64,000 nt of DNA from Hyunsoonleella ulvae (GTDB taxonomy: Bacteria; Bacteroidota; Bacteroidia; Flavobacteriales; Flavobacteriaceae). Positions 10,445 through 62,239 of this stretch are shown here, piece after piece. The translations under genes were made by a program, and so were the position numbers. Every line of letters starts with the position of its first letter. Within the stretch, counting starts at the first letter, position 1. The stretch is from the NCBI RefSeq assembly GCF_016827605.1, contig NZ_JAEPJQ010000004.1, forward strand, positions 124,001 to 188,000, in the 5' to 3' direction. The notes under the pieces are model-generated. The model did no database searches. It worked only from the letters and a program-made list of their open reading frames with translations, and was not told where the DNA came from.

Positions 10445-10518
10445 GCGTTAGGGATTGCAGAGGAAAGCCTACCTGTCGGCAGGCAGGCCCGACTCCCGCA
10501 TAAAGCGGGGTAACGCCC
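10445..10518. repeat. interspersed GCGTTAGGG...AACGCCC palindromic repeat, copy 1
   Basis: Starts GCGTTAGGGATTG and ends TAACGCCC, giving a 6-bp terminal inverted repeat. It contains an imperfect 22-bp palindrome at 10467-10488 (GCCTACCTGTC / GGCAGGCAGGC) and a small hairpin CCCGC-ATAAA-GCGGG. GC content is far above the surroundings. A second, larger copy lies at 47260-47369. This kind of element is common between genes in Flavobacteriaceae. Confidence 0.75.
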
Positions 10519-10541
10519 TTATTTATAAACATAGTATTATT

Positions 10542-12320
10542 TTACTTACTACTTTCTATCCAAGCATCTATTTTTTGCTCGAGCAATTGCAATGGTATAC
10601 ATCCAGTTTCTAATACTTGGTTGTGAAACTCCTTAATGTCGAAGGCTTTTCCTAATTTTTCTTTCGCTCTTGCTCTTAATTCAATAAGTTTTAACTGTCC
10701 AATTTTATAGGACAATGCCTGACCTGGATTTGCCATATAACGCTCTATCTCACTAATAATATCGGCTTCTGATTCTGCTTCGTTTTCTAAAGAATACTTA
10801 ATGGCTTGTTCTCGTGTCCAACCTTTTGCATGTATACCTGTATCTACAACCAAACGAATGGCACGATGAATTTCTGAACTTAGCATTCCAAAATATTGGT
10901 ATGGGTCTTTATAAAGCCCAAGTTCTTTACCCATAGATTCTGTATAAAGTGCCCAACCTTCACCATAAGCACTATACCAAATTGTTTTTCTGAACATTGG
11001 TAATTCTTCGTTTTCTTGAGCTAAGGAAATTTGAAAATGATGTCCTGGTATAGCTTCATGAAGAAATAAATCTTCTTTATCAAAAATATTATAACGCGCT
11101 AAATCTGGAATGGGTGTATAAAATATACCTGGCCTTGTGCCATCTAATGATCCAGCACTGTAGTTTGCAGCTGCTGATTTTTCTCTAAAAGGTTCGGTTC
11201 TCCTTACTTCGAATGCTGTTTTTGGTTGTTTATCAAACAACTTATTAATTTGAGGTTTCATTACATTATGAATGCTATCGTAAAAAGCTATGACTTGCGA
11301 ACGTTTGGTAAAAGGCATTAAAGCTTTATTATTTCTAACATGATCAAAAAACGACTTTAAATCTCCTTTAAAACCTACTTCCTTTTTAACTGCATCCATT
11401 TCTTGCCTAATTCTTGCTACTTCGTTTAAGCCTAATTGATGAATTTCATCTGCCGTCATAGACGTGGTGGTATATTTCTTTATTTGATGATTGTAATAGG
11501 CATTACCTAATGGTGTTGCATTGATACCGTGTGTACTTCTTCCTGCTGCTAAATATTCAGTTTTAAGAAATTGTGTCATATCCGCATAAGCAGGTATAAT
11601 TTTATTTTTTACCATTGCAGCGTAAGCCTCAGTTAAAGTATCTCTTTCTTTTTGAGAAAAGGATTCTGGAAAAAGATGCACTGGAGAATAAAAAAGATGG
11701 TCTTCTACTGTTCCTTTAGACAGGCTTTCAAATTGCGGTATAACTTTTTTAATTAAAGGTTTAGGCAACACATAACCTGAAGACATGCCCTCAATCATAT
11801 TCTTTTTTGCCGATTTAAGCCATACTAAATATCCGTCTACACGCTTTATCCAATCTTGGTAGTCTTTTACTGTTTTAAATGGTTGAGAATTAGTACCACT
11901 GGCCAATTGATTAAAATCTATATTTTCAGACCACATTTGATCTATGGGCATTAAATCTTTTTTAAACTTTAAGGCTTCTAAATTTATTTCGCAATCCCAC
12001 TTTAGTACATCTTTACTCATGTTTTCGCTATCGCTGAGTTTTGATGTATCCATACTATTTAAGGCTTTTAGATATTTCTCATAAAACGCTTTTGCTTTTG
12101 CTTTATATGCCTTAGACAAAACATCTGGATACTCCGCATTAAAACGATAATCGCCAGCATTTGTCGCAGAAACAGGGTTAAGTTTATACTGCTCTTCATT
12201 GTAGTTTTCTAGCAAACTGTTAAAGTCTTCACTAACTGTAGTTACTGGTTTATCGGGAGATTTTTTACAAGAATTAAGTACTATGGTAATAACTAATACG
12301 TATTTTAACAGATGTTTCAT
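10542..12320 (-). CDS. DUF885 family lipoprotein, putative metallopeptidase
   Basis: 592 aa. The lipoprotein signal ends VLNSCKKSP with the cysteine near residue 18. The DUF885 signature FLHEAIPGHHFQISLAQ lies in the C-terminal half, with HE and HH as likely metal ligands, followed by YGEGWALYTESMG and a downstream EAESEADIISEIERYMANPGQ segment with the family's terminal glutamates. Length is typical of the family. Members are predicted periplasmic or surface zinc peptidases; few are characterised. It is separate from the 10445 repeat and from the gene upstream (about 100 bp gap). Confidence 0.87.
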   Translation of the reverse strand: MKHLLKYVLVITIVLNSCKKSPDKPVTTVSEDFNSLLENYNEEQYKLNPVSATNAGDYRFNAEYPDVLSKAYKAKAKAFYEKYLKALNSMDTSKLSDSENMSKDVLKWDCEINLEALKFKKDLMPIDQMWSENIDFNQLASGTNSQPFKTVKDYQDWIKRVDGYLVWLKSAKKNMIEGMSSGYVLPKPLIKKVIPQFESLSKGTVEDHLFYSPVHLFPESFSQKERDTLTEAYAAMVKNKIIPAYADMTQFLKTEYLAAGRSTHGINATPLGNAYYNHQIKKYTTTSMTADEIHQLGLNEVARIRQEMDAVKKEVGFKGDLKSFFDHVRNNKALMPFTKRSQVIAFYDSIHNVMKPQINKLFDKQPKTAFEVRRTEPFREKSAAANYSAGSLDGTRPGIFYTPIPDLARYNIFDKEDLFLHEAIPGHHFQISLAQENEELPMFRKTIWYSAYGEGWALYTESMGKELGLYKDPYQYFGMLSSEIHRAIRLVVDTGIHAKGWTREQAIKYSLENEAESEADIISEIERYMANPGQALSYKIGQLKLIELRARAKEKLGKAFDIKEFHNQVLETGCIPLQLLEQKIDAWIESSK

Positions 12321-47454: not shown

Positions 47455-50448
47455 TTAGTTTTTCTTTTTTCCTTGTAATTTCTTTACTGAATCGTACATT
47501 ATTGGTGTTGCAATAAATAACGATGAATAAGTACCTACAATAACACCTACTATAAGGGCAAACATGAACCCACGAATGGAATCACCACCAAAAATAAAGA
47601 TGGATAGTAATACTACCAATGTGGTAAGCGATGTATTTAAGGTTCTACTTAATGTACTGCTTAATGAAGAATCCACCACACGATTGAATTCCCAACTAGT
47701 GTGTTCGTTAAAGAATTCTCGAATTCTATCGAATACTACCACGGTATCGTTTAATGAATATCCTATTACTGTAAGGATGGCCGCTATAAATGCTTGATCT
47801 ATTTCCATATTAAATGGCATAAACTTATAGGTTAATGAGAAGATCCCCAATACGATAAGCACATCGTGGAATACCGCTGCTACTGCCCCTAATGAGTATT
47901 GCCATTTTTTGAATCGTAACAAGATGTATAAGAATACTACGATTAAAGATCCTAGTATCGCCCAGAATGATGCTTTTTTGATATCATCTGCAATAGTTGG
48001 ACTCACTTTATCATTACGCATCAATCCTATAGTTTTATCTTCTGAATCGCTTATGAAATCCTCATAAGTCATCCCATCAAAATAAGGCTGTAAGGCTTTG
48101 AATAGCGATGATCTTATTTCTTCATCAACTTCTGCTCCTGTTTCGTTTACCTTATATTTTGTAGTGATTTTTAATTGGTTGGCATCTCCAAATGTTTTGG
48201 CATTTGCACTTCCAAATACTGCTGGATCTGATAATACATCTGTAATTTCAGAAGCATTCATATCTTGAGCAAAACGCACTTGATAGGTTCTACCTCCAAC
48301 AAAATCCACACCTTGATCTAAACCATTTGTAAATAACGAGCTTAAACCTACTACTATTAATATTCCTGAGATAATGTAGGCTATCTTTCTTTTCTTTAAG
48401 AATTCTACATTAATATTTCTAAATAGATTTTTAGTAATTGCTGTTGAGAAGGTTAATTCGCCGCCTCTATTAGTATACCAATCTACCAATAACCTTGTAA
48501 TAAATATCGCAGTAAACAACGATGTTGCTATACCTATTAATAAGGTTGTTGCGAATCCTTTAATTGGACCTGTACCGAAAATAAATAGAATTAATGCTGT
48601 TAATCCCGTAGTGATGTTAGCATCCAATATAGACGATAGTGCATTGCTAAAACCATCTTGAATGGCATCTTTTTGCCCTTTTCCTTTTGCTAGCTCTTCC
48701 CGAACACGCTCAAAGATAAGTACGTTAGCATCTACCGACATACCAATTGTTAATACAATACCTGCAATACCAGGCAGCGTTAATACCGCTCCTAATCCTG
48801 ATAATATACCAAAGATTAATAAAATGTTTAATAACATGGCGATATCTGCGAACCCTCCTACTTTTCCGTAGTAGAAAATCATCCATAACAAGACAACAGC
48901 CAATGCTATTAAGAACGACATGGTACCACTATCTATAGCTTCTTGCCCTAATGATGGCCCTACCACCTCACTTTGAATAATATCTGCTGAAGCCGGTAAT
49001 TTACCTGCACGTAACACATTTGCTAAATCTATAGCTTCATTCAACGTAAAGTTTCCTGATATTGAAGAATTCCCCCCAGAAATTGGTCCTGAAGTAACAC
49101 CTGGTGCCGAATACACTACATTATCTAAAACTATAGCAATTTGTCCGCCTTCTTGATAGGCTCTACCTGTCATTTCTTCCCAGATCTTTGCACCTTTACT
49201 ATTCATTTGCATAGACACTTCTGGTTGTCCAGTTTGCCCAAATGTATGTCTGGCATCTGTTACTACTGCTCCACTTAACTCTGGCGTATTTTCCCTATTA
49301 CCTTTTAAGGCATATAAATCTAATACCTCGCTGTTCTTTTCTGGCTTACTAAATGCAAACTTTACATAGCGTAGTTCTGCAGGTAATAATGCTCTTACTT
49401 GTGGCTTGTTTAAATAGTCAAGCACGGTTTCCTTGTCTTTTATTGCAAAGGACGCCACTACTGGTCCTCCTGGATATCCAAAACCTTTTACTAAACTTCC
49501 TAATGGACTTGCTGAAAGTGGATCAACCGCTGTAGAATCTGTAGCAGCCTCACCTAAAAGTTCATCAATTTTATCTTCTGTGGCATCTTCCTCATCTTGT
49601 GGCTCTATCTCTTCTACTTCTTGTTCTACCTCAACGATATCCTTTAATACTTGATCTGCTTGAAATATAAATTGTTGTAATTGTTGCCCTTTGTATACAT
49701 CCCAAAACTCCAATTGCGCTGTACTCTGCAATAATCCTGTAGCACGCTCTATATCCTTTACTCCTGGTAGTTCTACCAAAATACGCCCAGAGTTTCCTAA
49801 ACGTTGAATGTTAGGTTGGGTTACACCAAACTGGTCGATACGCTTACGTAATACTTCAAATGCAGAAACGATTGATTCATCAATCTTAGTTTCTATAATC
49901 CCTTGCACCTCTTCATCAGACATGTCTCCAGTAATTTCCCCATCCAAAGCTTTGGTATAGAATATGTCTGGAGACGCTAATTTTTGATCGCCTTTAATGG
50001 CATCAAAAGCGATAAAGAAATCTTCTAAATAAGTGTTTTGACTGTCTTCTTGAAGCTTTGATGCATTCTCTAAAGCTGTATTAAATACAGGATCTTTTGT
50101 ATTGTTTGCTAACCCCTTTAATATATCTTTTACCGACACTTGAAGAATAACGTTTAAACCTCCTTTAAGGTCTAAACCTAGGTTCATGGACTTTTGCTTT
50201 ACTTCATTGTAGGTATAATCAGCTACTAATAAATCAAAAACAGTATCTGTGGCCTTGGCATCCAGATAATTTATTTCTTCTAGATTTCGCTTAGCACGAT
50301 AATCTTCTTCTGTTTCAGGGAACTTGCTTATGGCTAGTTCCTCTGCTTCCTTTTCAATTTGATTTGCTTTAAATGTGAATGATAATTGGTAGATACTTAC
50401 CAAACCAAACAAAATAGCAAATAATTTAACTACTCCTTTATTTTGCAT
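47455..50448 (-). CDS. secDF: fused protein translocase subunit SecDF
   Basis: 997 aa, the Bacteroidota fusion. SecD part: first helix, P1 head starting LGLDLKGGLNVILQV, acidic insert (about 270-300), VTSGPISGGNSSISGNFTLNEA, then helices with GMSVDANVLIFERVREE. SecF part from about 665: GVDFVGGRTYQVRF and GYSLNDTVVVFDRIREFF. It uses the proton gradient to pull proteins across the inner membrane after SecYEG. Ends in a terminator at 47403. A free-standing copy of its P1 domain is encoded 0.8 kb upstream at 51272. Confidence 0.97.
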   Translation of the reverse strand: MQNKGVVKLFAILFGLVSIYQLSFTFKANQIEKEAEELAISKFPETEEDYRAKRNLEEINYLDAKATDTVFDLLVADYTYNEVKQKSMNLGLDLKGGLNVILQVSVKDILKGLANNTKDPVFNTALENASKLQEDSQNTYLEDFFIAFDAIKGDQKLASPDIFYTKALDGEITGDMSDEEVQGIIETKIDESIVSAFEVLRKRIDQFGVTQPNIQRLGNSGRILVELPGVKDIERATGLLQSTAQLEFWDVYKGQQLQQFIFQADQVLKDIVEVEQEVEEIEPQDEEDATEDKIDELLGEAATDSTAVDPLSASPLGSLVKGFGYPGGPVVASFAIKDKETVLDYLNKPQVRALLPAELRYVKFAFSKPEKNSEVLDLYALKGNRENTPELSGAVVTDARHTFGQTGQPEVSMQMNSKGAKIWEEMTGRAYQEGGQIAIVLDNVVYSAPGVTSGPISGGNSSISGNFTLNEAIDLANVLRAGKLPASADIIQSEVVGPSLGQEAIDSGTMSFLIALAVVLLWMIFYYGKVGGFADIAMLLNILLIFGILSGLGAVLTLPGIAGIVLTIGMSVDANVLIFERVREELAKGKGQKDAIQDGFSNALSSILDANITTGLTALILFIFGTGPIKGFATTLLIGIATSLFTAIFITRLLVDWYTNRGGELTFSTAITKNLFRNINVEFLKKRKIAYIISGILIVVGLSSLFTNGLDQGVDFVGGRTYQVRFAQDMNASEITDVLSDPAVFGSANAKTFGDANQLKITTKYKVNETGAEVDEEIRSSLFKALQPYFDGMTYEDFISDSEDKTIGLMRNDKVSPTIADDIKKASFWAILGSLIVVFLYILLRFKKWQYSLGAVAAVFHDVLIVLGIFSLTYKFMPFNMEIDQAFIAAILTVIGYSLNDTVVVFDRIREFFNEHTSWEFNRVVDSSLSSTLSRTLNTSLTTLVVLLSIFIFGGDSIRGFMFALIVGVIVGTYSSLFIATPIMYDSVKKLQGKKKN

Positions 50449-51271: not shown

Positions 51272-52210
51272 TTATTTATTACCTAGGGTTGTTTGTTCTA
51301 ATAATATTAGTTGCGGAATCGTTTTTTTGGCTGATAAAATTGCAGCCAAATCTTGTGCTTGCTCGACTGTAAAATTCCCAGAAATAGAAGAGTCCCCTCC
51401 TTTTATCGCACCAGAAGTTACACCCGGAGCAGAATATACCATATCATTTAAAGTAATGGCTATACTTGTTCCTTTTTGAAATGCTTTTCCTGTAATTCGT
51501 TCCCAAATCATAGCACCTTCTTCATTCATTTTTATTGTTATTTCAGGTTTCCCTGTAACTCCAAATACTTGTCTAGCACTGGTTATAACCTCTCCTGTTA
51601 AAGGTGGTTTTTGTTCTCTATTTGATTTGGCAGCATACAAAGGAACATGCCCAGAAGCATCGGGCATCCCCCATAAAAATTTAACTTTATCTGCGCTAAA
51701 AGGTAATTTACTTTTTGATGTTTTACGTTTTAAAATTGAATTAAGGTAGGCAGTATCTTCAACTTTAAAATTAAAGATAACGGGGCCTCCCATATACCCA
51801 ATAGATGTAACCAGTTCTGATAATTGTGGACTATTCTCTTTCTCAATTTTATTCTTATTATTTTCATCACTGTCAATACTAAAAAAGTAAGTATTAAACT
51901 CCTCCCCTTTATACAATTCCCAAAACTCAAGTTTTCCTCTGTTTGAAATTAATCTATCTACTCTTTTAATATTAAGTTCATTTGCTTTAATCTTTACCTC
52001 TATTTGATTTTTTCCGAAACACTCAACAGTTGATACAACACCAAAATTCGCTAATCTTTCTTGAATCACTGCTATGGTATTTTTAATTTCTATACCAGAC
52101 AACCCGATATCATTTTCAAAACCATATACAAATCTATACTCTTGTTTAGGCTTAATCAATTCACAGGAAAACAAACAAAACACAAAAGCAAATACTATTA
52201 TTTTTTTCAT
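51272..52210 (-). CDS. lipoprotein with SecD P1-head domain
   Basis: 312 aa. Lipobox FCLFSCELI (Cys near residue 16). The mature part aligns by eye with the periplasmic domain of the SecDF encoded next door: GKLEFWELYKGEEFNTYFF versus QLEFWDVYKGQQL; SARQVFGVTGKPEITIKMNEEGAMIWERITGKAFQKG versus DARHTFGQTGQPEVSMQMNSKGAKIWEEMTGRAYQEG; SAPGVTSGAIKGGDSSISGNFT versus SAPGVTSGPISGGNSSISGNFT. It ends just where SecD enters the membrane. No channel helices, so it cannot work as a translocase alone; it may be a periplasmic helper or an idle duplicate. Confidence 0.88.
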   Translation of the reverse strand: MKKIIVFAFVFCLFSCELIKPKQEYRFVYGFENDIGLSGIEIKNTIAVIQERLANFGVVSTVECFGKNQIEVKIKANELNIKRVDRLISNRGKLEFWELYKGEEFNTYFFSIDSDENNKNKIEKENSPQLSELVTSIGYMGGPVIFNFKVEDTAYLNSILKRKTSKSKLPFSADKVKFLWGMPDASGHVPLYAAKSNREQKPPLTGEVITSARQVFGVTGKPEITIKMNEEGAMIWERITGKAFQKGTSIAITLNDMVYSAPGVTSGAIKGGDSSISGNFTVEQAQDLAAILSAKKTIPQLILLEQTTLGNK

Positions 52211-53592: not shown

Positions 53593-54609
53593 TTATCTGA
53601 ATCCAAAATTGATACCTAATGAAAAGGCGTTAAAATCAGATAAATGATATTCTGCGTTAAGCCTAAAAAAGCCTAATTTTAATTTTGTTCCAAGCGTTCC
53701 TCTTACTGCCGACACTTCACTTTGTACTGAAAATGGGTCTACAATAGGATCTGACGATATTAATCCGTTTGTGACGATATAGGTTCCTAACAAATCAGAT
53801 TCTGACTTACCTTTTATGTAACCTAAGCCTCCATAAAAATTGATAACAGGAAGTTTCGTAGACGCTACTAATGATAAGAGTAAAGTATTTGTTTTATTCT
53901 CTATACGCTGATCGCTACCGCTAATTCCTGAGGAATCTGTTAAATCGTACTTACCATCGAGGTGTGTATATGCTACCACACCAGAAACAGCCACAGGCCA
54001 TAATTTGTCAGCTGGTAACCAATCTGTAAATTCAATTTGCAATCCAGCACCATACATGCTCAATGACACCTCATCTGTATCTACGGTAGGCACAAATCGT
54101 GCTTTTACCTCAATACCTTTGCTCAAGCCTATGGCTCCTTGAATAAAAGCGGTTGGCAATAGGTTACCTGTACCATCTCCAATACCGTCGGGCAACTCTA
54201 AGGTTTCACTTTGATTGCCAAAAATTGGGTCTTCATATTCTATATCAACAAATACTGTAGGATCATTTTCGCCTAAAACACTAGCTACCATCTGAGGGTT
54301 ACCACCTTGCGTAAAAGAAATATTGTTATAATCAGACGTATTCATATTGAACATTTTCTGATCATCTCCATACTGAGCAGCATTGGCAATAATTGAAATC
54401 TCAAAACCTCCTAAAGGTTTTGCCTTTCCAGAATTAAACCAATTGGCATTCATACTGTGCATTAAACCATTGGTTCCCGGTGCAAGGTAATCGTTAGCAA
54501 ATCGTTCAGCGTCTTCAACACCTGCTGCCAATAAAGCGTCAATATCATTTTGTGCTTTTACGAATGTTACTGAAAGTGTTAATACTAGTAGTAAGGCTAA
54601 TCTTTTCAT
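53593..54609 (-). CDS. DUF6588-like outer-membrane beta-barrel protein
   Basis: 338 aa. Signal peptide MKRLALLLVLTLSVTFVKAQ, then NDIDALLAAGVEDAERFANDYLAPGTNGLMHSMNANWFNSGKAKPLGGFEISIIAN, matching the DUF6588 family of Bacteroidota as I recall it, and barrel-type strands ending in LGINFGFR with C-terminal aromatic-Arg. Function unknown. It lies 94 bp downstream of the STN-TonB receptor on the same strand, so it may be an accessory outer-membrane partner or merely an adjacent gene; no sigma-type promoter site precedes it. Confidence 0.75.
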   Translation of the reverse strand: MKRLALLLVLTLSVTFVKAQNDIDALLAAGVEDAERFANDYLAPGTNGLMHSMNANWFNSGKAKPLGGFEISIIANAAQYGDDQKMFNMNTSDYNNISFTQGGNPQMVASVLGENDPTVFVDIEYEDPIFGNQSETLELPDGIGDGTGNLLPTAFIQGAIGLSKGIEVKARFVPTVDTDEVSLSMYGAGLQIEFTDWLPADKLWPVAVSGVVAYTHLDGKYDLTDSSGISGSDQRIENKTNTLLLSLVASTKLPVINFYGGLGYIKGKSESDLLGTYIVTNGLISSDPIVDPFSVQSEVSAVRGTLGTKLKLGFFRLNAEYHLSDFNAFSLGINFGFR

Positions 54610-54703: not shown

Positions 54704-57247
54704 TCAGAAATTACATCTAAAACTAATATTAGGCGTTAATCCTAAGGACTTATTTTCTATCTTAATAGTGCTATTGGAATTGTTTGGATCTACCTCATAA
54801 TAGGTATTAATTACATTCTTTCTATTTGAAAGATTGATAACTCCTATCCTTAACGAGCTTTTCAGGTTTGGCATTATTTTAAATGCATAATTGAGTGAAG
54901 CGTCCAAACGTATAAAATCATCTTGTCTTTCATTGTTTGGCAAATCATAGTTTACAAAAATGGTATTGCCGTCTTGTACGGTTTCATTACCTTCAACAGG
55001 CTTTGTATATGGTTGCCCAGAACGCCAAATACCACCAATAGAAATTTCTAACGTTTTTAAGATACTGTAGTTAAATGCTAATGATACCGAATGCCTAATA
55101 TCAACATTGTTGGGAAATATAGATGGCGATAACGTATCAAATTCATAATCATTTAAACTATAAGTATAGCTTAACCAGGTGCTAAAAGTAGCAGCTGTTT
55201 TATTAATCAAAAATTCTACTCCACGAGCATCGTAACTACCAGAGGCATTTAAATATTGAAAATTATTGTAAAACCCTTGATTGGATACTGTTATACCATT
55301 TACTGTTTTGTAAAACCCTTCTACATCCAAAACCCAATTATTCTTGAGGTATTCTAAGCCAAAAGACGCCTGTTTACTTTTAGAAATTGGAATAGATACA
55401 TTATCAGCTAAAATCCATCGTCTATTTTCTACACCTAAAAAGTCATCTTGAAAATCGATTATTTGCGTTACAGATTGGTTTTTAAACTCTCCTTGTAATT
55501 TTATTGCAAACTGATTGGTTAATTTTTGCCTCAAATTTAATCGTGGTTCTATGATAAACTCATTAAACTTCTGAAAATAATTACCCCTAACACCTAATCT
55601 TAAATAAGTTTTACTGTTGTTAAGCTCTAACTCCCCAAAAGCTGCATGGTTAAGCAATACATCTTTTTTCGTACGGTCGTAGGCTGGGTTGCTCACATCA
55701 GTAGCATTTAAAATCCCTGTTTCGCTAAATTGATATCCTAATGCAACATTTAGTTTTTCATGAATCTTGAAATCTGTTTTTATCTTGACACCTGTTTCCA
55801 ATACCTCATTGGCCTGTATCAACCTTTGATCTGTTTCTATCCTGAAATCTATTGCATCAACATTATATTTTGTGTAAAACCCGTTAATTAGGGTGGAAAA
55901 CCTATTGTTCCACTTAGCATGCCAACTCCCCCCGAAACCTAGATTCTTCTGCTGTAGGTTACTGGTTTTAGATTCTGTTTCGTTTTCTGTATTTGTAAAT
56001 GTTTCCGTGTAATCCAGGTTATTGTTAATGCCAATGACATTAGCCCTGAATTTGTGGTTTCTATTTAAATCGAAAAGTATTTTTGCTGTATAATCGTAGA
56101 AGAAGAAATCTGAAGTTCTATTGCTTTCACTAATATTATCGCTATTTGTAGTTAATTCGCTATCCTGAAAACTACGCTCAAAATAATTATCATAAGTTGG
56201 CGAACTAAACACATCAGTAAAAGAACGTCTTCCAGAAACATGAAATGCTAATTTCTTATTTATTGGGATTTCCAGAAATGCATCTGCGTGTATTAAGTTA
56301 GCACCAAATCCGCCTGAAAGATCGCTTCCAATATCATTCTTAGTAAACATATTAATAGTACTGGACACCCCATCACTAAACTCACTTGATGTACCGTTCT
56401 TGGTCACTACAACTTTATTGGTTAAATATGGGTTATAAGCAGAAATAAGCCCAAAGAAATGCCCAGAATGATACATCTTTATGTTGTCCCAAAGTATTAA
56501 ATTCTGGTCGTTTGTACCACCACGTACATTTATGTTGGCAATACTTTCATTTACACTTTCTACACCAGGAAGTGCTTGAATAGATTGTAAAACATCTGGT
56601 TCTGTAAGTCCTGGAAGCACACCAAACTTTTCGGTATTTAGTAACGTGCTACCATCTGTTTGTTTTTGTAAACCAGTGGTTAAAAATTTTGAAATTAATA
56701 TCTCGTTTAAGATTTCGCTTTCCTCTGTTAACACCACCGTTTTACATGTCCCATACTTTTTTCGAAGCTCATGAGCTTCAAAGCGCAATGTTTTGTATCC
56801 CAAAAACGATATTACCACAGCTTCTTTAACTTCTACATTTTCTATTTCAAAATTACCATTAGCATCAGCAATAATGCCTTTTGAAGAATTATCAATAAAT
56901 ATGGATGCCCCAAGTAGCGACTCCCCCTTTACTTCGGGAACCAATGTTCCGCAAATTGTTATTTTTTTATCTATGGTAGATACGGTTATGTAGCGATCCG
57001 TTAAAAATTTAAAACTTAAAATGGTCGTATCATTAAGATACTGAATAATAGTTTTTAATGAACTTGCATCAGGGGGTAGATTAACTATTACATGGTTTAC
57101 ATCTTCTACTGAATACGAAAACTTTACATCAAATTTTGTTTCCATATCAGAGATGAGCTCTTCAAGTTTTACCTGTTCCTGTCCCTGTATTATCGTAAAA
57201 CTAAGTAAAAAAAAAGCAATAGCAACACAGCGCTTATTTAGCTTCAT
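54704..57247 (-). CDS. STN-domain TonB-dependent receptor (signal transducing)
   Basis: 847 aa from the ATG at 57247 (MKLNKRCVAIAFFLLSFTIIQGQEQ, signal peptide). Order: STN/secretin-TonB N-terminal domain (about 25-95), carboxypeptidase-D regulatory-like domain (about 100-175; GASIFIDNSSKGIIADANGNFEIENV), plug (about 195-300; PDVLQSIQALPGVESVNESIANINVRGGTNDQNLILWDNI), and a 22-strand-type barrel. The STN domain normally contacts a FecR protein, encoded directly upstream with a 14-bp overlap. No SusD gene follows, so the ligand is more likely a small compound, metal complex or peptide than a glycan (inference). Confidence 0.92.
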   Translation of the reverse strand: MKLNKRCVAIAFFLLSFTIIQGQEQVKLEELISDMETKFDVKFSYSVEDVNHVIVNLPPDASSLKTIIQYLNDTTILSFKFLTDRYITVSTIDKKITICGTLVPEVKGESLLGASIFIDNSSKGIIADANGNFEIENVEVKEAVVISFLGYKTLRFEAHELRKKYGTCKTVVLTEESEILNEILISKFLTTGLQKQTDGSTLLNTEKFGVLPGLTEPDVLQSIQALPGVESVNESIANINVRGGTNDQNLILWDNIKMYHSGHFFGLISAYNPYLTNKVVVTKNGTSSEFSDGVSSTINMFTKNDIGSDLSGGFGANLIHADAFLEIPINKKLAFHVSGRRSFTDVFSSPTYDNYFERSFQDSELTTNSDNISESNRTSDFFFYDYTAKILFDLNRNHKFRANVIGINNNLDYTETFTNTENETESKTSNLQQKNLGFGGSWHAKWNNRFSTLINGFYTKYNVDAIDFRIETDQRLIQANEVLETGVKIKTDFKIHEKLNVALGYQFSETGILNATDVSNPAYDRTKKDVLLNHAAFGELELNNSKTYLRLGVRGNYFQKFNEFIIEPRLNLRQKLTNQFAIKLQGEFKNQSVTQIIDFQDDFLGVENRRWILADNVSIPISKSKQASFGLEYLKNNWVLDVEGFYKTVNGITVSNQGFYNNFQYLNASGSYDARGVEFLINKTAATFSTWLSYTYSLNDYEFDTLSPSIFPNNVDIRHSVSLAFNYSILKTLEISIGGIWRSGQPYTKPVEGNETVQDGNTIFVNYDLPNNERQDDFIRLDASLNYAFKIMPNLKSSLRIGVINLSNRKNVINTYYEVDPNNSNSTIKIENKSLGLTPNISFRCNF

Positions 57248-58148
57248 AATTGTAGAACTTAACATTTTTACCGTTTATTGTATAGCTTAATTTTAATGGA
57301 ATAGTTACAGCCTTTAATGCAATATTCTTATCGGTGTGCGTAAAACTCCCTGAAAACAACACATTTTGATCAATTCCTTTAGAGGTAATGTTAATATCAT
57401 ACTGCGTTTCAAGTTCTTCAATAACTTGCCATAGCGGCACCTCTTTAAAACTTGACTCCTCAGTTAGCCAAGAAGGGTTTTGTGCATTAAAATCCCCAAC
57501 GTTAATTATTTTACCATTTACCAGCCTGAAAGTTTTTCCCGGCAACAATACTATTTTGCTAGAACCACTAGTAACACGAACGGAACCTTCATAACACTGA
57601 ACCTCAAAATAATTGTCACGCTCTTTTACATTAAACTGGGTTCCTAAAACCTTTATAGTTCCTTCATCTGTATTTACAGTAAATGTTTTTCCTTTGGTTA
57701 CCTTAAAAAAGGCTTCCCCGTCCAGGTTTAAAACCCTATCCTTTTGCCACTCTTTTTTATTATACGAAAGTTTAGATTGCGCATTTAATATCACTTCAGA
57801 GTTATCGGGTAAACTTAAAGTTTCTGTCTGGGCTATTTTAGTGGTAAATGTTTCGGTATTATTAAAAAACAAAAAGTATGACGACGTGAGTAGGATTATA
57901 AAAATAGCAGCCACCTTAAGGAAAGATTTAAAATTTAACGGAATAACCTTAGGCTCTTCTCTGTTAAACATCTTCTTTTTAAAATCTGCTAAAGCTTTTT
58001 CTGCATCTACTTTTGGCGCTTCTAACTGTTTAGCATAAAAACCCGTTTTTTCTAAAACAGTAAAGTCCTCTTCTGGGTAAAGAGATTTGATTTCCTCGGT
58101 AGAAATCTTACCATCAAACCATTTTAGTATGTCGTTTTCTTTACTCAT
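57234..58148 (-). CDS. FecR family anti-sigma factor
   Basis: 304 aa. Cytosolic N-terminus (about 1-75: sigma binding), one membrane helix (FLKVAAIFIILLTSSYFLFF, about 76-96), periplasmic FecR domain (LSLPDNSEVILNAQSKLSYNKKEW...RVLNLDGEAFFKVTKGKTFTVNTDEGTIKVLGTQFNV) and C-terminal DUF4974 (WQVIEELETQYDINITSKG). It holds the sigma factor until the loaded receptor signals. It has its own sigma-type promoter at 58169-58196, separate from the sigma gene 68 bp upstream. Confidence 0.93.
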   Translation of the reverse strand: MSKENDILKWFDGKISTEEIKSLYPEEDFTVLEKTGFYAKQLEAPKVDAEKALADFKKKMFNREEPKVIPLNFKSFLKVAAIFIILLTSSYFLFFNNTETFTTKIAQTETLSLPDNSEVILNAQSKLSYNKKEWQKDRVLNLDGEAFFKVTKGKTFTVNTDEGTIKVLGTQFNVKERDNYFEVQCYEGSVRVTSGSSKIVLLPGKTFRLVNGKIINVGDFNAQNPSWLTEESSFKEVPLWQVIEELETQYDINITSKGIDQNVLFSGSFTHTDKNIALKAVTIPLKLSYTINGKNVKFYNYEAK

Positions 58149-58168: not shown

Positions 58169-58196
58169 TAAGACACCTATATATATGTTTACCCTA
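58169..58196 (-). promoter_or_regulatory. ECF sigma promoter P1 (fecR-receptor unit)
   Basis: On the minus strand TAGGGTAAA, 11 bp, GTGTCTTA; the -10-like part ends 21 bp before the FecR start. The flank TTTGG-TAGGG is shared with P3. One of four sites with identical boxes and identical spacing. Confidence 0.88.
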
Positions 58197-58215
58197 CCAA
58201 ATTTTTTAAAAAAAA

Positions 58216-58737
58216 TTAAATATTTACCCCCTCCATCTTTTTACGCAATACTTTTAAGGCACCAGACATACGCTTTTCAACAGTTTTTTGAGACACACCC
58301 AACATATCAGCAATCTCACGGTATTTTTTATCCTCAACCCTGTTCAACAAAAAAACTTCACGTTGTTCCTCACTTAAATCAGCAATCACAGCTTGTAATT
58401 TTTGTTTAAATTCTTCTTCTTCCAGTAAATATTCAGGACTCATATCCGTTCTATCCATATATGGAGATGCCTTGGCATAATTCAACACCACTTTTTGATG
58501 ACGAACAGTATTTAAAAATAAATTGTTGACAGTGGTAAAAAGATAGGTTTTAGCCTTTTCAAAATCTATTTTGGCACAATTTTCCCAAATTTTCGAAAAC
58601 GCATCTTGAACAAAATCTAATGCAGCTGCATTATCTCCACATTTATAATAGGCAAAATTATTAACCGCTTGTATGTGTTCTAAATAAAAGGCATTAAAAT
58701 GCGATTCTTTACAAAGTTTAGGTTTGGAGCTGCTCAT
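58216..58737 (-). CDS. FecI-type ECF sigma factor
   Basis: 173 aa. Region 2: YLEHIQAVNNFAYYKCGDNAAALDFVQDAFSKIWENC...FEKAKTYLFTTVNNLFLNTVRHQK. Region 4: LSEEQREVFLLNRVEDKKYREIADMLGVSQKTVEKRMSGALKVLRKKM. It is freed when FecR is signalled and should recognise the TAGGGTAAA-11-GTGTCTTA sites found at 58169, 58848, 59017 and 61707. No such site precedes its own gene, so the sigma factor is probably expressed from another promoter and not self-amplified. Confidence 0.93.
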   Translation of the reverse strand: MSSSKPKLCKESHFNAFYLEHIQAVNNFAYYKCGDNAAALDFVQDAFSKIWENCAKIDFEKAKTYLFTTVNNLFLNTVRHQKVVLNYAKASPYMDRTDMSPEYLLEEEEFKQKLQAVIADLSEEQREVFLLNRVEDKKYREIADMLGVSQKTVEKRMSGALKVLRKKMEGVNI

Positions 58738-58847
58738 AAAATCAAAAAATTATGATACCACAAAAATAGATATATTTTTTTTCACATTATAAATATCTTA
58801 TTTTCAATTACTTATACATTATTCAAGTAAAAAAGTAAAAAAATCCA

Positions 58848-58875
58848 TAGGGTAAAAAGAAACCCATGTGTCTTA
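58848..58875 (+). promoter_or_regulatory. ECF sigma promoter P2 (small peptide)
   Basis: TAGGGTAAA, 11 bp, GTGTCTTA, ending 7 bp before the ATG at 58883. It lies in the spacer divergent from the sigma factor gene. The short distance implies a nearly leaderless transcript. Confidence 0.85.
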
Positions 58876-58882
58876 AAAATGT

Positions 58883-59008
58883 ATGAGAACAAAATACAAC
58901 AATACAGGATTTGATATAATATATAAAATAGTTAGAACGCTATTAATCATCATACTTGTACTATGTATTTTTACCTCGATAGAATTAACAATTAAAATAT
59001 TTTTTTAA
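58883..59008 (+). CDS. 41-aa single-helix membrane peptide
   Basis: Starts MRTKYNNTGFDIIYKIVRTL and continues with a hydrophobic core LLIIILVLCIFTSIELTIKIFF; stop at 59006. One membrane helix (about residues 19-33) with a basic N-terminus, so N-in is expected. It lies exactly between sigma promoters P2 and P3. No family recognised. The precise promoter placement is the main reason to believe it is a gene; it is too short for usual gene finders. Confidence 0.55.
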   Translation: MRTKYNNTGFDIIYKIVRTLLIIILVLCIFTSIELTIKIFF

Positions 59009-59016
59009 AAATTTGG

Positions 59017-59044
59017 TAGGGTAAAAAACAAATAACGTGTCTTA
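59017..59044 (+). promoter_or_regulatory. ECF sigma promoter P3 (lipoprotein run)
   Basis: TAGGGTAAA, 11 bp, GTGTCTTA, 22 bp before the first possible ATG (59067) and 61 bp before the favoured ATG (59106). Preceded by TTTGG as in P1. Confidence 0.88.
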
Positions 59045-59105
59045 CCAATAGAAAGCGAAAAAAGCTATGAAAAAGAAAAATCTTATAACCAAAAAAAATG
59101 AAATC

Positions 59106-60158
59106 ATGAAAAATTTAAAATTTTTAACCGCAATCTTATTAGTATCAATTTTTACGTTTACATCTTGTCAAGATGAAATTGATAGCGAAAATGGAAACCG
59201 AGAAAACACGAATAGTGCAACATCTCCAACAGCAAGCAACTTAGAACGCTCCTCTATGTACGATGGTAGTTTTGACGATTTTCTTGATGGTATATCCTGT
59301 TCATCAGTATTATTACCGGTTACCGCAACAATAAACAATACTCAGGTTACCTTAATTAGTGAATCTGATTATAATTTAGTACTGAATATTCTTGGAGAAT
59401 TTACAAACGATGATGACAGTATTCAGCTTCAGTTTCCCTTAACCGTAAGACTAAGTAACTATACTGAAGTAGAAGTGGCAAACCAGACAGAATATGATGC
59501 CCTTATGGCTGCCTGTGAAGAGGCCGAAGCTGAGGCGGAAGATGCTATTAACTGTATAGACATTGATTTTCCAATCACTATTTTAACTTTCGACCTGGGT
59601 CTTGAGCAAACAGGAAGTGTAGTTATCGAATCTGAGCAGGAGTTATACACCTACATGAATAACTTTGGAAACGATGCACTGTTCTCTGTAAATTACCCTA
59701 TCACTGCTACAGTAAATGGAGACACCACAGTTACAATAACAAGTGATATGGACTTACAGTCTAGAATTACTGAATGCCTAGGCATTGAGGAAATGGAAGA
59801 GGAGGCTGAGGAAAATGCCAATACTTTGGAAGATATTTTAGTTGACGGGATGTTTAGAATAGAATCGTTCATAACTGCAGGGGTAAATACTGCTACCGAT
59901 TATGCTGATTACACTATCGATTTTGCAAACGACTTAACATGTACTGCTGAAAATACAGTAAACACAACAGTACAGGATGTAGAGGGAACGTATGAAGTAG
60001 CCTCAGAAACTGAAGTATTCTTAACATTAACCTTTAGTGGAAACGCTACGTTCGAGTTGTTAAACACTACTTGGGAAGTAACCAGTTTTTCATCAAATAC
60101 AATTAATCTACAAAGCACAACAAATGCTGGAGTAACCCTAGTGTTGTCTCAAATATAA
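59106..60158 (+). CDS. surface lipoprotein with duplicated module and lipocalin-like tail
   Basis: 350 aa from the ATG at 59106 (MKNLKFLTAILLVSIF); a start at 59067 would add a Lys-rich 13 residues. Lipobox FTSCQDEID. Two tandem modules: about 60-135 (CSSVLLPVTATINNTQVTLIS...FPLTVRLSNYTEVEVANQTEYDALMAAC) and about 150-225 (CIDIDFPITILTF...YPITATVNGDTTVTITSDMDLQSRITEC), each framed by cysteines. A C-terminal domain (GMFRIESFITAGVNTATDYADYTIDF...WEVTSF) looks lipocalin-like. Very acidic (EEMEEEAEENA). No known function; target of promoter P3. Confidence 0.82.
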   Translation: MKNLKFLTAILLVSIFTFTSCQDEIDSENGNRENTNSATSPTASNLERSSMYDGSFDDFLDGISCSSVLLPVTATINNTQVTLISESDYNLVLNILGEFTNDDDSIQLQFPLTVRLSNYTEVEVANQTEYDALMAACEEAEAEAEDAINCIDIDFPITILTFDLGLEQTGSVVIESEQELYTYMNNFGNDALFSVNYPITATVNGDTTVTITSDMDLQSRITECLGIEEMEEEAEENANTLEDILVDGMFRIESFITAGVNTATDYADYTIDFANDLTCTAENTVNTTVQDVEGTYEVASETEVFLTLTFSGNATFELLNTTWEVTSFSSNTINLQSTTNAGVTLVLSQI

Positions 60159-60191
60159 AACTAGACTGGTTTTTATTACGTATGTTATGGT

Positions 60192-60225
60192 AAAGCGGCT
60201 ACCAACCCCAAATGGTAGCTGCTTT
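60192..60225 (+). terminator. intergenic hairpin between lipoprotein and zincin genes
   Basis: 13-bp stem AAAGCGGCTACCA / TGGTAGCTGCTTT with one G-T pair, loop ACCCCAAA, then only T1-A2, a weak T run. It lies 33 bp after the lipoprotein stop and 18 bp before the next gene, so it probably reduces, not stops, transcription. Confidence 0.65.
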
Positions 60226-60243
60226 TAACAAAAAAACAAACAG

Positions 60244-61026
60244 ATGAAACAATATACAATCATTACAACCCTGTTTTTATCGCTGATTTTTGCATGTTCT
60301 AAAGATGACAGCAATACAGAAAACACCCCAGACAATCAGATCTTAAATAAAAACATAAATAGACAGCCTACAGGAAGTTCAGCAAACGATTTGCTATCAG
60401 AGACTACTTTTAAGAGTGCTGTTATTGAGTTAGTATATGTTGAGGGTTTTGAACCTACTCAGGTAGCTATTGATAATTTTGTTTCATTTTTAAACAACAG
60501 AACGTTTAAGCCAAACGGTATCAGAGTTGAAAAACGAGGAATTGTCACACCTGGGAAAGAGCGGTTTTCAATTGATGATATTGCAGATATTGAAAAAAAG
60601 GAGCGTACCAAATACAACTCTGGAGATGAAATAGCTATTTGGGCACTTTTTATTGATGGTAAATCAGAAAATGATACCGAAAACAGCGTAACCCTGGGTA
60701 GTGCCTATTGGAATACCTCTTTTGTAATCTACCAAGAAACCCTACAAAACTTAAGCAACAGCCCATTTGAACCTGATAGAAGTTTATTGGAAACTACAGT
60801 AATTACGCATGAAGTAGGCCACATTCTGGGTTTAACAGATTTAGGGTCAGATATGCAAGAACATCATGAAGACGAAGCCCACCCTAAGCATTGTAATGTA
60901 GAAAATTGCCTTATGTATTGGGCTGCTGAAACGGGAGCTGGGATTGCTAATATGACGGAAATGACTAGTGCACCACAATTAGACGCCTTTTGCTTAGATG
61001 ACCTTAGGGCTAATGGAGGCAAATAA
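60244..61026 (+). CDS. zincin (metzincin-like) protease lipoprotein
   Basis: 260 aa. Lipobox IFACSKDD, with charged residues after Cys as in surface lipoproteins. Zinc motif HEVGHILGLTD at about 189-199: two His and the catalytic Glu, Gly196, and Asp199 at the third-ligand place where His is usual (Asp is used in snapalysin-type enzymes). It is followed by H-C-NVENCLMYW, a Met-turn-like CLM. It should be an endopeptidase at the cell surface. It lies 85 bp downstream of the P3-driven lipoprotein gene, behind a weak terminator. Confidence 0.85.
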   Translation: MKQYTIITTLFLSLIFACSKDDSNTENTPDNQILNKNINRQPTGSSANDLLSETTFKSAVIELVYVEGFEPTQVAIDNFVSFLNNRTFKPNGIRVEKRGIVTPGKERFSIDDIADIEKKERTKYNSGDEIAIWALFIDGKSENDTENSVTLGSAYWNTSFVIYQETLQNLSNSPFEPDRSLLETTVITHEVGHILGLTDLGSDMQEHHEDEAHPKHCNVENCLMYWAAETGAGIANMTEMTSAPQLDAFCLDDLRANGGK

Positions 61027-61057
61027 AGAAAGAATATAACCTAAAAAAAACAGAACA

Positions 61058-61636
61058 ATGAAAATAAAATTTTTAATCATAGTAACACTTTTAAGTACAA
61101 TAACCAATATTAATGCGCAGAGCAAATCTAATGCTGGTTTAAAAGTAGGTTACAATTTAGCTGCTGTAAGTTTTGACGGCGAAACTAAAACTGGACAAAG
61201 ACATGGATTTCATGCTGGATTTTATGGAGAATCTTTCCTATCTGATGTGATAGCTTTACAAGTTGAAGTATTATACTCTCAACAAGGCTATGAATTGAGA
61301 GATAACGGAGGAACCTTTACCCAGAAATTAGATTATATAAATATGCCTTTAGTCCTAAAAATATATCCCGATGCCAATTTCTATTTAGAAGCTGGACCGC
61401 AAGCGGGTTTAGCCATTAACCACAAAGAAGAATTTGATAGTAACTTTAGCTTATTCAATACTTCACAAGAATTTGACCCTCAAAGTTTTGATTGGGGTGT
61501 TAATTTTGGAGCAGGTTTTAAAACCGATACAGGAGTTAGCCTTGGCGTAAGATATCATTTAGGAATGGGAGATATTTATAACGAGGGCAACCCACAAAAC
61601 AGAGTTTGGCAATTCTCATTAGGATTCGATTTTTAA
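61058..61636 (+). CDS. outer-membrane beta-barrel (PorT-like) protein
   Basis: 192 aa. Signal peptide MKIKFLIIVTLLSTITNINAQ. NAGLKVGYNLAAVSFDGE, HGFHAGFYGESFLSDVIALQVEVLYSQQGYEL, LDYINMPLVLKIYPDANFYLEAGPQAGLAI and GVSLGVRYHLGMGDI are the strands of the PorT/OMP_b-brl_2 eight-stranded family; it ends in QFSLGFDF with the C-terminal Phe. It lies 31 bp after the zincin gene and ends in the terminator at 61659. The role is unknown; co-expression with the regulon is likely. Confidence 0.86.
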   Translation: MKIKFLIIVTLLSTITNINAQSKSNAGLKVGYNLAAVSFDGETKTGQRHGFHAGFYGESFLSDVIALQVEVLYSQQGYELRDNGGTFTQKLDYINMPLVLKIYPDANFYLEAGPQAGLAINHKEEFDSNFSLFNTSQEFDPQSFDWGVNFGAGFKTDTGVSLGVRYHLGMGDIYNEGNPQNRVWQFSLGFDF

Positions 61637-61658
61637 TCAAAAAAAAATCATATATAGC

Positions 61659-61690
61659 AAAAGCCAGTTTGATTTATCAAATTGGCTTTT
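61659..61690 (+). terminator. terminator after the beta-barrel gene
   Basis: 15-bp stem AAAAGCCAGTTTGAT / ATCAAATTGGCTTTT with one G-T pair, then TATTTTTTT. It separates the lipoprotein-zincin-barrel run from promoter P4. Confidence 0.88.
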
Positions 61691-61706
61691 TATTTTTTTA
61701 AATACA

Positions 61707-61734
61707 TAGGGTAAATTAAAATTAAGGTGTCTTA
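61707..61734 (+). promoter_or_regulatory. ECF sigma promoter P4 (His/Tyr-rich protein)
   Basis: TAGGGTAAA, 11 bp, GTGTCTTA, 49 bp before the start at 61784. Same boxes and spacing as P1-P3. Confidence 0.88.
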
Positions 61735-61783: not shown

Positions 61784-62239
61784 ATGAAACTTTTAAAAAC
61801 AAGCATTAGTATTATAATCATGTGTATTTCATTTTCTTTTTACGCACAAGAAGGCAACAAAAATGAAGATGAGAAAATAACAGACAAAGCATCATACTAT
61901 GAAAAGCGTGCTGCTGAAGATGCCAAATTTGAGCAACAATTTAAAGCAGAATCCGAAACTGAAGCCAAAGCATTCTGGGAAGATCAAAAAGCTTATGAAA
62001 AAGAGTTAAAACAAAGAGACCGTAAATCATACCGTGCTTACATGAGAGGAAAAAGAGATGCTTATGCAGAACATTACGAACACTGTAATGACCATTGCCA
62101 TCATGGGGAGCGCTATTATTACCATGCTTCATTCTATTATTACAGATATGATGGCTATTACTATAATAGATACCCGAGAAGAAGCACTATAAACACTAGT
62201 GTTAGGGTTAATGTACCAAGCGTAAGAATTGGCATTTAG
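61784..62239 (+). CDS. secreted His/Tyr-rich protein
   Basis: 151 aa. Signal peptide MKLLKTSISIIIMCISFSFYAQ. A charged helical middle (YYEKRAAEDAKFEQQFKAES, KAFWEDQKAYEKELKQRDRK) is followed by a His/Cys cluster (HYEHCNDHCHHGERYYYH) and a Tyr-rich segment (FYYYRYDGYYYNRYPRR). The cluster could bind Cu, Zn or heme. No family recognised. It has a dedicated sigma promoter (P4) and terminators on both sides, so it is a single-gene member of the regulon. Confidence 0.8.
   Translation: MKLLKTSISIIIMCISFSFYAQEGNKNEDEKITDKASYYEKRAAEDAKFEQQFKAESETEAKAFWEDQKAYEKELKQRDRKSYRAYMRGKRDAYAEHYEHCNDHCHHGERYYYHASFYYYRYDGYYYNRYPRRSTINTSVRVNVPSVRIGI

Follow-up and report, generated by a model that had tools for sequence, protein, structure and literature searches.

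The locus and its four sites

We examined a 64,000-nucleotide (nt) stretch of the Hyunsoonleella ulvae genome (contig NZ_JAEPJQ010000004.1, positions 124,001 to 188,000; hereafter the window) that carries a divergently arranged gene cluster around an extracytoplasmic function (ECF) sigma factor. The minus strand encodes the sigma factor itself (58216..58737; 173 residues), which scores over the cut-off for Sigma70_r2, Sigma70_r4_2 and TIGR02985; a 304-residue FecR-type anti-sigma regulator (57234..58148) over the cut-off for PF04773 and PF16344, with a hydrophobic stretch near residue 77 and a match to the solved putative anti-sigma 4m0n at an expectation value (E) of 1.5e-17; and an 853-residue TonB-dependent receptor (54704..57265) composed of an N-terminal FecR_C-like segment, CarbopepD_reg_2 and a plug. 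The plus strand encodes a 41-residue peptide, a lipoprotein, a zinc protease-like protein (zincin), a small beta-barrel protein and a His/Tyr-rich protein.

An earlier note on this DNA described four identical two-box sites in the cluster and read them as promoters of the local sigma factor. The pattern TAGGGTAAA-N11-GTGTCTTA indeed occurs four times, on the strands and at the positions given there, with no mismatch over its 17 specified positions. One copy, found by pattern search of window and genome and again in related loci, precedes fecR and the receptor gene on the minus strand (58169..58196). The other three, from the same pattern search, lie on the plus strand: a tandem pair, with site 1 5' of the 41-residue open reading frame (ORF; site at 58848..58875) and site 2 5' of the lipoprotein gene (59017..59044), and a copy 5' of the His/Tyr-rich gene (61707..61734). 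The nearest start codon lies 20 nt from the site for fecR, 7 nt for the 41-residue ORF and 49 nt for the His/Tyr-rich gene; the lipoprotein site stands 22 nt from the first ATG of its ORF and 61 nt from the ATG that agrees with relatives. We give a probability of roughly 0.87 to the reading that the ECF sigma factor encoded among these sites uses them as its -35/-10 promoters, an assignment drawn from sequence comparison.

The pattern is rare. No further site with three or fewer mismatches was found in the window, and 100 dinucleotide shuffles of the window gave a mean of 0.22 matches and a maximum of three, never four. The genome as a whole (G000; 4,059,856 bases) contains no match besides these four copies at zero or one mismatch, where a simple base-composition estimate predicts 0.001 exact matches. 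Weaker matches number one with two mismatches (C1:1283615), which sits within a long ORF as judged from its placement in L080, and twelve with three. These were rejected as background because a reversed control pattern yields 28 genome matches at up to three mismatches vs 17 for the real pattern. The genome-wide search that the earlier note had proposed found nothing outside the cluster at zero or one mismatch, and dozens of matches within coding sequence or ahead of unrelated genes, which it had named as counter-evidence, did not appear in this genome. A scan of the window for sigma-70-type promoters returned 40, vs 39.2 in shuffles.

Conservation of the site, its spacing and its position

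A search with the window FecR recovered 23 loci, mostly from named Flavobacteriaceae; four are labelled as metagenome-assembled genomes, one of these Labilibaculum. We call modules with this FecR A-type and paralogous modules, whose FecR is 38-44% identical, B-type. The site lies 5' of fecR at up to two mismatches in 19 of the 23 loci, the four without it being those at 38-40% FecR identity. The divergent side is included in 18 of those 19, each of which has a site 5' of the lipoprotein gene at the same tolerance. The comparison of orthologous clusters suggested in the earlier note came out in its favour on both sides of the cluster. In three loci (L023, L025, L031) the lipoprotein gene is duplicated, and every copy has its own site.

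The distance between the boxes is fixed. When TAGGGTAAA followed by NTGTC was sought in 24 sequences, 52 sites were found at a spacer of 11 and none at any spacer of 5-10 or 12-18; variable spacing was thus rejected. On the fecR side, 42 of 44 sites end 18-21 nt 5' of the ATG (some species counted twice). Among 86 unique A-type sites picked at up to two mismatches, positions 1-5, 23 and 24 are invariant, and spacer positions 10-20 carry 0.17-0.90 bits.

Sites so unusually invariant might instead be the two halves of an activator or repressor binding site, with another sigma factor transcribing the genes, since binding by the sigma factor is itself deduced from letters. We regard this as highly improbable: the halves are neither copies nor reverse complements of one another; the fixed 16-nt distance between AGGR and TGTY and the placement 18-21 nt before fecR suit an ECF promoter; the sigma factor is the only one of eight window proteins scanned that scores over the cut-off for a DNA-binding family; and, as described below, the letters change with the sigma clade.

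Folding alone places a short stem-loop (AGCGA/UCGCU type) about 10 nt past the site in 17 of 21 lipoprotein leaders, the L032 leader being excluded. A hairpin just past the predicted mRNA start fits transcription starting there. Among the leaders of L022-L040, the two arms of the stem-loop change together in L025 (second copy) and L033; that of the window itself (59045-59070) is weak.

Co-occurrence of the site and FecR

We searched 299 family genomes for exact matches to the relaxed pattern TAGGGTAAA-N13-GTCTTA and for FecR at 51% identity or more, a threshold set at a gap visible in the match list (next best 45%). The pattern is present in 27 genomes and the FecR in 25: 24 have both, one has FecR only, three have the site only and 271 have neither (Fisher p = 4e-31, kinship ignored).

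The 24 doubly positive genomes hold 64 matches, of which 55 were assigned to an A-type cluster by coordinates. The nine outside comprise two before His/Tyr-rich genes (G054, G161), one at a paralogous module in G038, three before mutually similar small membrane proteins (G192, G054, G154), one before a secreted zinc-protease-like protein (G154) and two without a sensible target (inside an ORF in G140, and in G145). The membrane proteins of G192 and G054 are 36% identical (E 2e-26; the G192 gene was read in L075, same species), and that of G154 is weakly alike (E 2e-6 and 2e-5), all three values referring to a five-sequence set only. A separate search covered the 17 A-type genomes to which named loci belong (some share a species; L024, L028, L041 and L042 omitted) and gave 49 exact matches, 46 in the cluster and three outside, two of these before His/Tyr-rich genes and one before the same membrane-protein gene.

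Small membrane proteins of this kind thus have an exact site away from the cluster in three genomes (L075, L144, L147). The zinc-protease-like gene of G154, whose site is at L148:1410-1437, encodes a large secreted protein (HEIGH) and is a possible extra target.

Several observations weigh against the assignment. One genome (G273) has the FecR with only two-mismatch sites. In G038 the exact site adjoins a second, 44%-identical FecR, not the 51% one. Exact matches in G140 and G149 fall within ORFs on the other strand, those in G145 and G299 lack a nearby gene start in the right orientation, and that in G101 lies about 180 nt 5' of a long, unrelated-looking ORF; G101, G149 and G299 are the three site-only genomes, with one stray match apiece. 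Within the genus the site is missing from ten of 12 genomes at up to one mismatch, the other two having four exact copies each; among the ten, the best FecR in G004 is distant, at 42%. The letter counts given above come from sites chosen at up to two mismatches, which favours conservation, and some B-type modules (L140) are close to the A-type letters.

A probable target that keeps the site when unlinked

The His/Tyr-rich gene (61784..62239, plus strand), recognized from its ORF, alignment and upstream sites, encodes a protein with a hydrophobic N terminus and invariant Cys and His positions. It adjoins the cluster in many genomes; elsewhere it is distant or on another contig and retains the site. 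Thus it lies on another contig in G018 and, with one mismatch in the site, in G191; about 7 kb away in G024; about 42 kb away in G026 (one mismatch); and about 380 and 775 kb away in G054 and G161. In all 18 genomes examined that have the A-type FecR, the site stands 29-60 nt 5' of the His/Tyr-rich ATG, exactly in 14 and with one mismatch in four.

We examined the 30 of 36 His/Tyr-rich matches that had loci; none of the remaining six is in a genome with the A-type FecR. At the 12 loci without it, the best site match has one to seven mismatches. AGGR-N16-TGTY is present in six of the 12, with TGTT in five of the six; five of the 12 matches do not start at an ATG, so that the upstream stretch may be misplaced.

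The regulon was described in the earlier note as local. This holds for G000 and fails in other genomes, where some members lie far off.

A terminator-like hairpin (61659..61690, plus strand; z -5.8) precedes the His/Tyr-rich unit in the window; the terminator scan overall found no more such elements than shuffles did.

Paralogous modules and the sigma clade

B-type modules mostly share the core of the site in other surrounding letters. AGGR-N16-TGTY lies 5' of fecR in eight of nine B-type rows, L138 having none there, and on the lipoprotein side in six of nine; examples are CAGGAGTTT...TTGTTATA and TAGGGTTTT...TTGTTATA. G000 itself carries such a paralog on the same contig as the window cluster, with sites TAGGAAAAA...CTGTTATA and TAGGAGTTT...ATGTTTTA that depart from the window sites in the -35 extension and in the -10.

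The sigma factors divide along the same line. In a tree of 36 A and 5 B rows, a branch with 99/96 support sets the A-type proteins apart on one side. The tree omitted L113 (the window copy), identical rows, L139 (no sigma factor in the stretch) and the rows whose automatic start left fewer than 150 residues (L028, L041, L042, L043, L118, L138). Comparison of the same 36 and 5 rows yielded no clean specificity residue. With the site accompanying the His/Tyr-rich gene and its letters shifting with the sigma clade, the idea of a sigma-specific promoter gains ground; conservation, fixed spacer and co-occurrence with FecR likewise agree with the claim that the local FecI-type sigma reads these sites.

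The sites could also be genuine ECF promoters that another ECF sigma factor of the genome reads or shares. The Bacteroidota sigma family is matched 38 times in the genome, with 28 matches spanning most of the model and one falling in the same-contig paralog module, and sites near the A-type occur without an A-type FecR (one mismatch in G241; G037 as L140). Set against this, exact sites track the A-type FecR over the 299 genomes and the local paralog has different sites, and we judge this reading very unlikely.

The paralog module of G000 (L143, on C18) has two further features. The sigma gene and fecR site of this module flank a perfect 7-bp tandem repeat of GAACACT (8852-8917; 9.4 copies), possibly a variable-length switch. 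The paralog receptor ORF (10454-12250) has 598 residues vs about 850 in relatives.

Sigma gene, anti-sigma factor and receptor

The sigma gene itself appears not to be a target. TAnnTTTG, the Bacteroidota housekeeping -7 box as described in PMC7366714, precedes the sigma gene in 33 of 42 rows vs 3.8 expected from shuffles, and the ECF core in none of the 42. A housekeeping-type element without an ECF core suggests that the sigma factor is constantly present and that FecR and the receptor are probably the induced parts.

The earlier note described a FecI-FecR-STN set. Sigma factor, adjacent FecR and TonB receptor are borne out; the STN domain is not matched. Pfam STN is absent from the 15 families listed for the N-terminal segment of the receptor, where the FecR_C model instead matches residues 31-95 below cut-off. 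This model matches 14 of 17 aligned receptors at E <=1 (best 4e-5); the plug, over cut-off in the window receptor, is matched in all 17 at E <=1 (best 2.8e-9). Behind the receptor gene on the same strand lies a DUF6588 gene (53593..54609) with no site of its own, which is probably on the receptor transcript.

Cargo genes and operon structure

The first plus-strand ORF (58883..59008; 41 residues), defined by its place between the tandem sites and by hydropathy, would encode a single-span membrane protein. Of the 18 rows with two sites on this side, 12 have an ORF of 30-41 residues between the tandem sites (11 of 15 without species repeats); none is present in L128 or in five rows whose gap is about 80 bp. 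Eleven of twelve such peptides (L023 included) contain a strongly hydrophobic stretch; that of L037 does not. In three pairs the ratio of nonsynonymous to synonymous substitution rates falls at 0.36-0.50, though the small number of codons makes this a weak test. The ORF has the look of a small, conserved membrane protein; with its start 7 nt past the site in this genome, it is predicted to be nearly leaderless. That the first tandem site is a leftover of a lost lipoprotein copy, as L023, L025 and L031 with their two copies might suggest, was considered and rejected; the small ORF in 12 of 18 rows argues against it.

The lipoprotein (59067..60158, plus strand) is modelled as four beta-beta-beta-alpha modules followed by a C-terminal, eight-strand lipocalin-like domain (AlphaFold2; mean predicted local distance difference test, pLDDT, 80.6; predicted template modelling score, pTM, 0.65). 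Its nearest structures are one uncharacterized and one lipocalin-like Bacteroides protein (E 2.4e-3 and 2.9e-3), followed by potempin E (0.036-0.038), and no structural match falls below 0.001. Pfam searches of 24 lipoprotein sequences found no common family, and the lipoprotein profile found nothing at E <=1 among PDB sequences.

The next gene (60244..61026, plus strand) encodes an archaemetzincin-like zinc protease lipoprotein, as judged from zinc motifs, fold match and signal. HExxH and HC-x4-C-L-M (HC-x4-C-x-M) are invariant in 23 sequences. The model (pLDDT 75.5, pTM 0.74; low confidence at residues 199-229, the second zinc motif) best matches archaemetzincin 2x7m (E 4.1e-5, template modelling score 0.68 by target length), with other metzincins at E 7e-4 and weaker. 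Zinc motifs and fold are like those of 2x7m; the window protein differs in being a lipoprotein and in an insertion between the two motifs. The NCBIfam archaemetzincin score is 19, short of the cut-off of 145, and the profile search against PDB sequences gave a single match, at a non-credible E 0.57.

The N-termini of both proteins resemble the Capnocytophaga surface-export signal C-X-K-(D/E)2 as given in PMC5080379: C-S-K-D-D of the zincin agrees with it, and C-Q-D-E of the lipoprotein resembles such signals. Because of this resemblance we place both proteins, probably, on the cell surface. A small outer-membrane beta-barrel gene (61058..61636, plus strand), assigned from family scans and neighbourhood, follows.

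A hairpin (60192..60225, plus strand; centroid -20 kcal/mol, z -5.0) separates the lipoprotein and zincin genes and may act as a partial terminator or mRNA end. Stems with at least three GC pairs were counted in 16 of 18 such gaps by a simple stem count, and folding gives a hairpin in the other two. The ECF core is found in none of the 18 gaps and TAnnTTTG in four (L032 gap excluded throughout). Transcription would thus continue into the zincin and barrel genes at a reduced level, and their place in the regulon, which the earlier note had held possible, depends on this read-through, for they lie behind a strong hairpin with no site of their own.

Elsewhere in the window, a stand-alone lipoprotein-like protein of 312 residues (51272-52210) is 36% identical to part of a SecDF-like protein (47455-50448).

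What the regulon may do

Our tentative guess is that the regulon makes a surface apparatus for cutting and capturing some extracellular protein- or metal-bearing substrate. The case for any such function leans on fold resemblance with weak scores, a further point to be counted against our overall interpretation.

A related reading, which we find doubtful, is that the regulon serves to acquire metal or haem, with the His/Tyr-rich protein binding metal, the protease freeing it and the receptor importing it. Over 19 His/Tyr-rich sequences, C101, C105 and H107 are invariant and H104 and H106 nearly so, and TonB receptors and FecI systems classically serve iron carriers, as described for E. coli (PMC9249621). 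Against it, the eight window proteins scanned include no metal-transport family and, apart from the receptor, no transport family.

We consider it unlikely that the cluster is instead an envelope-stress or surface-defence response. Several cargo genes do encode envelope proteins without a transport family, and potempin E, among the structures that the lipoprotein C-terminal domain resembles, is a protease inhibitor, so that lipoprotein and protease might form an inhibitor pair. That match is marginal, however, lipocalin-like domains are common in Bacteroidota, and a TonB receptor as sensor implies a ligand. A literature search on potempins and on archaemetzincin lipoproteins found no paper.

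A model of the circuit and its relation to known systems

The following sequence of events would account for the arrangement. The sigma factor would be made from a housekeeping promoter and bound by FecR. By analogy with the known Fec mechanism, a ligand at the TonB receptor would cause its N-terminal domain to signal to FecR, releasing the sigma factor. The freed sigma would recognize a promoter core of AGGG, 16 bases and TGTC, extended to TAGGGTAAA and TGTCTTA, and would transcribe fecR and the receptor gene (with the DUF6588 gene possibly included), the small membrane protein, the His/Tyr-rich gene and the lipoprotein gene, with read-through to the zincin and barrel genes. Anti-sigma factor and sensor would thus be targets, and the sigma factor would not.

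The system resembles FecI-FecR-FecA of E. coli in its ECF sigma factor, FecR and TonB receptor, in having the receptor operon as a target and in a sigma factor that is not autoregulated (PMC9249621). It differs in that E. coli fecR, by the same account, is co-transcribed with fecI and not ligand-induced, whereas here fecR joins the receptor gene behind a sigma-type site; and in its unlinked extra targets, non-transport surface cargo and promoter sequence. The receptor shares CarbopepD_reg_2 and plug with SusC/RagA-type receptors, but scores 51.7 bits for TIGR04056 vs a cut-off of 368 and has no SusD beside it among the proteins scanned.

Flavobacterium psychrophilum, also of the Flavobacteriaceae, has an ECF-type -10 element, SM6, with a conserved CGT box that precedes type IX secretion system genes among others; here the -10 is TGTCTTA and the -35 TAGGGTAAA. 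That start map describes one ECF-like motif and allows that further ECF starts may await discovery (PMC9723704). In Bacteroides thetaiotaomicron a second promoter class has elements near -10 and -30, and in 2020 no motif was known for any of its ECF sigma factors (PMC7366714). TGTT near -10, proposed there as an ECF element, equals the -10 core of the B-type modules; the sigma-specific motif was not significant, and the text consulted assigns no FecR or receptor pairing (PMC12596196). No description of the present motif or cluster was found, by title and opening of the abstract, among the papers listed in literature searches that covered few subscription journals.

For the family, we tentatively suggest as one joint proposition that a Flavobacteriaceae sigma family was duplicated and made private through the letters around a fixed AGGR-N16-TGTY while serving the same dispersed targets; that the targets form a new surface machine of repeat-lipocalin lipoprotein, archaemetzincin-like protease, small barrel and His/Tyr-rich metal-binding protein; and that anti-sigma factor and sensor are induced and the sigma factor is not.

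Little is known of ECF promoters in Bacteroidota, and here one sigma factor can be paired with its probable promoter by sequence comparison, with a same-genome paralog as a built-in specificity control. Anonymous FecI-FecR-receptor annotations would thereby become a testable regulon in which several surface protein families of unassigned role are tied to one signal, and this apparently self-contained outer-membrane sensing circuit may serve as a test case for how such circuits remain private.

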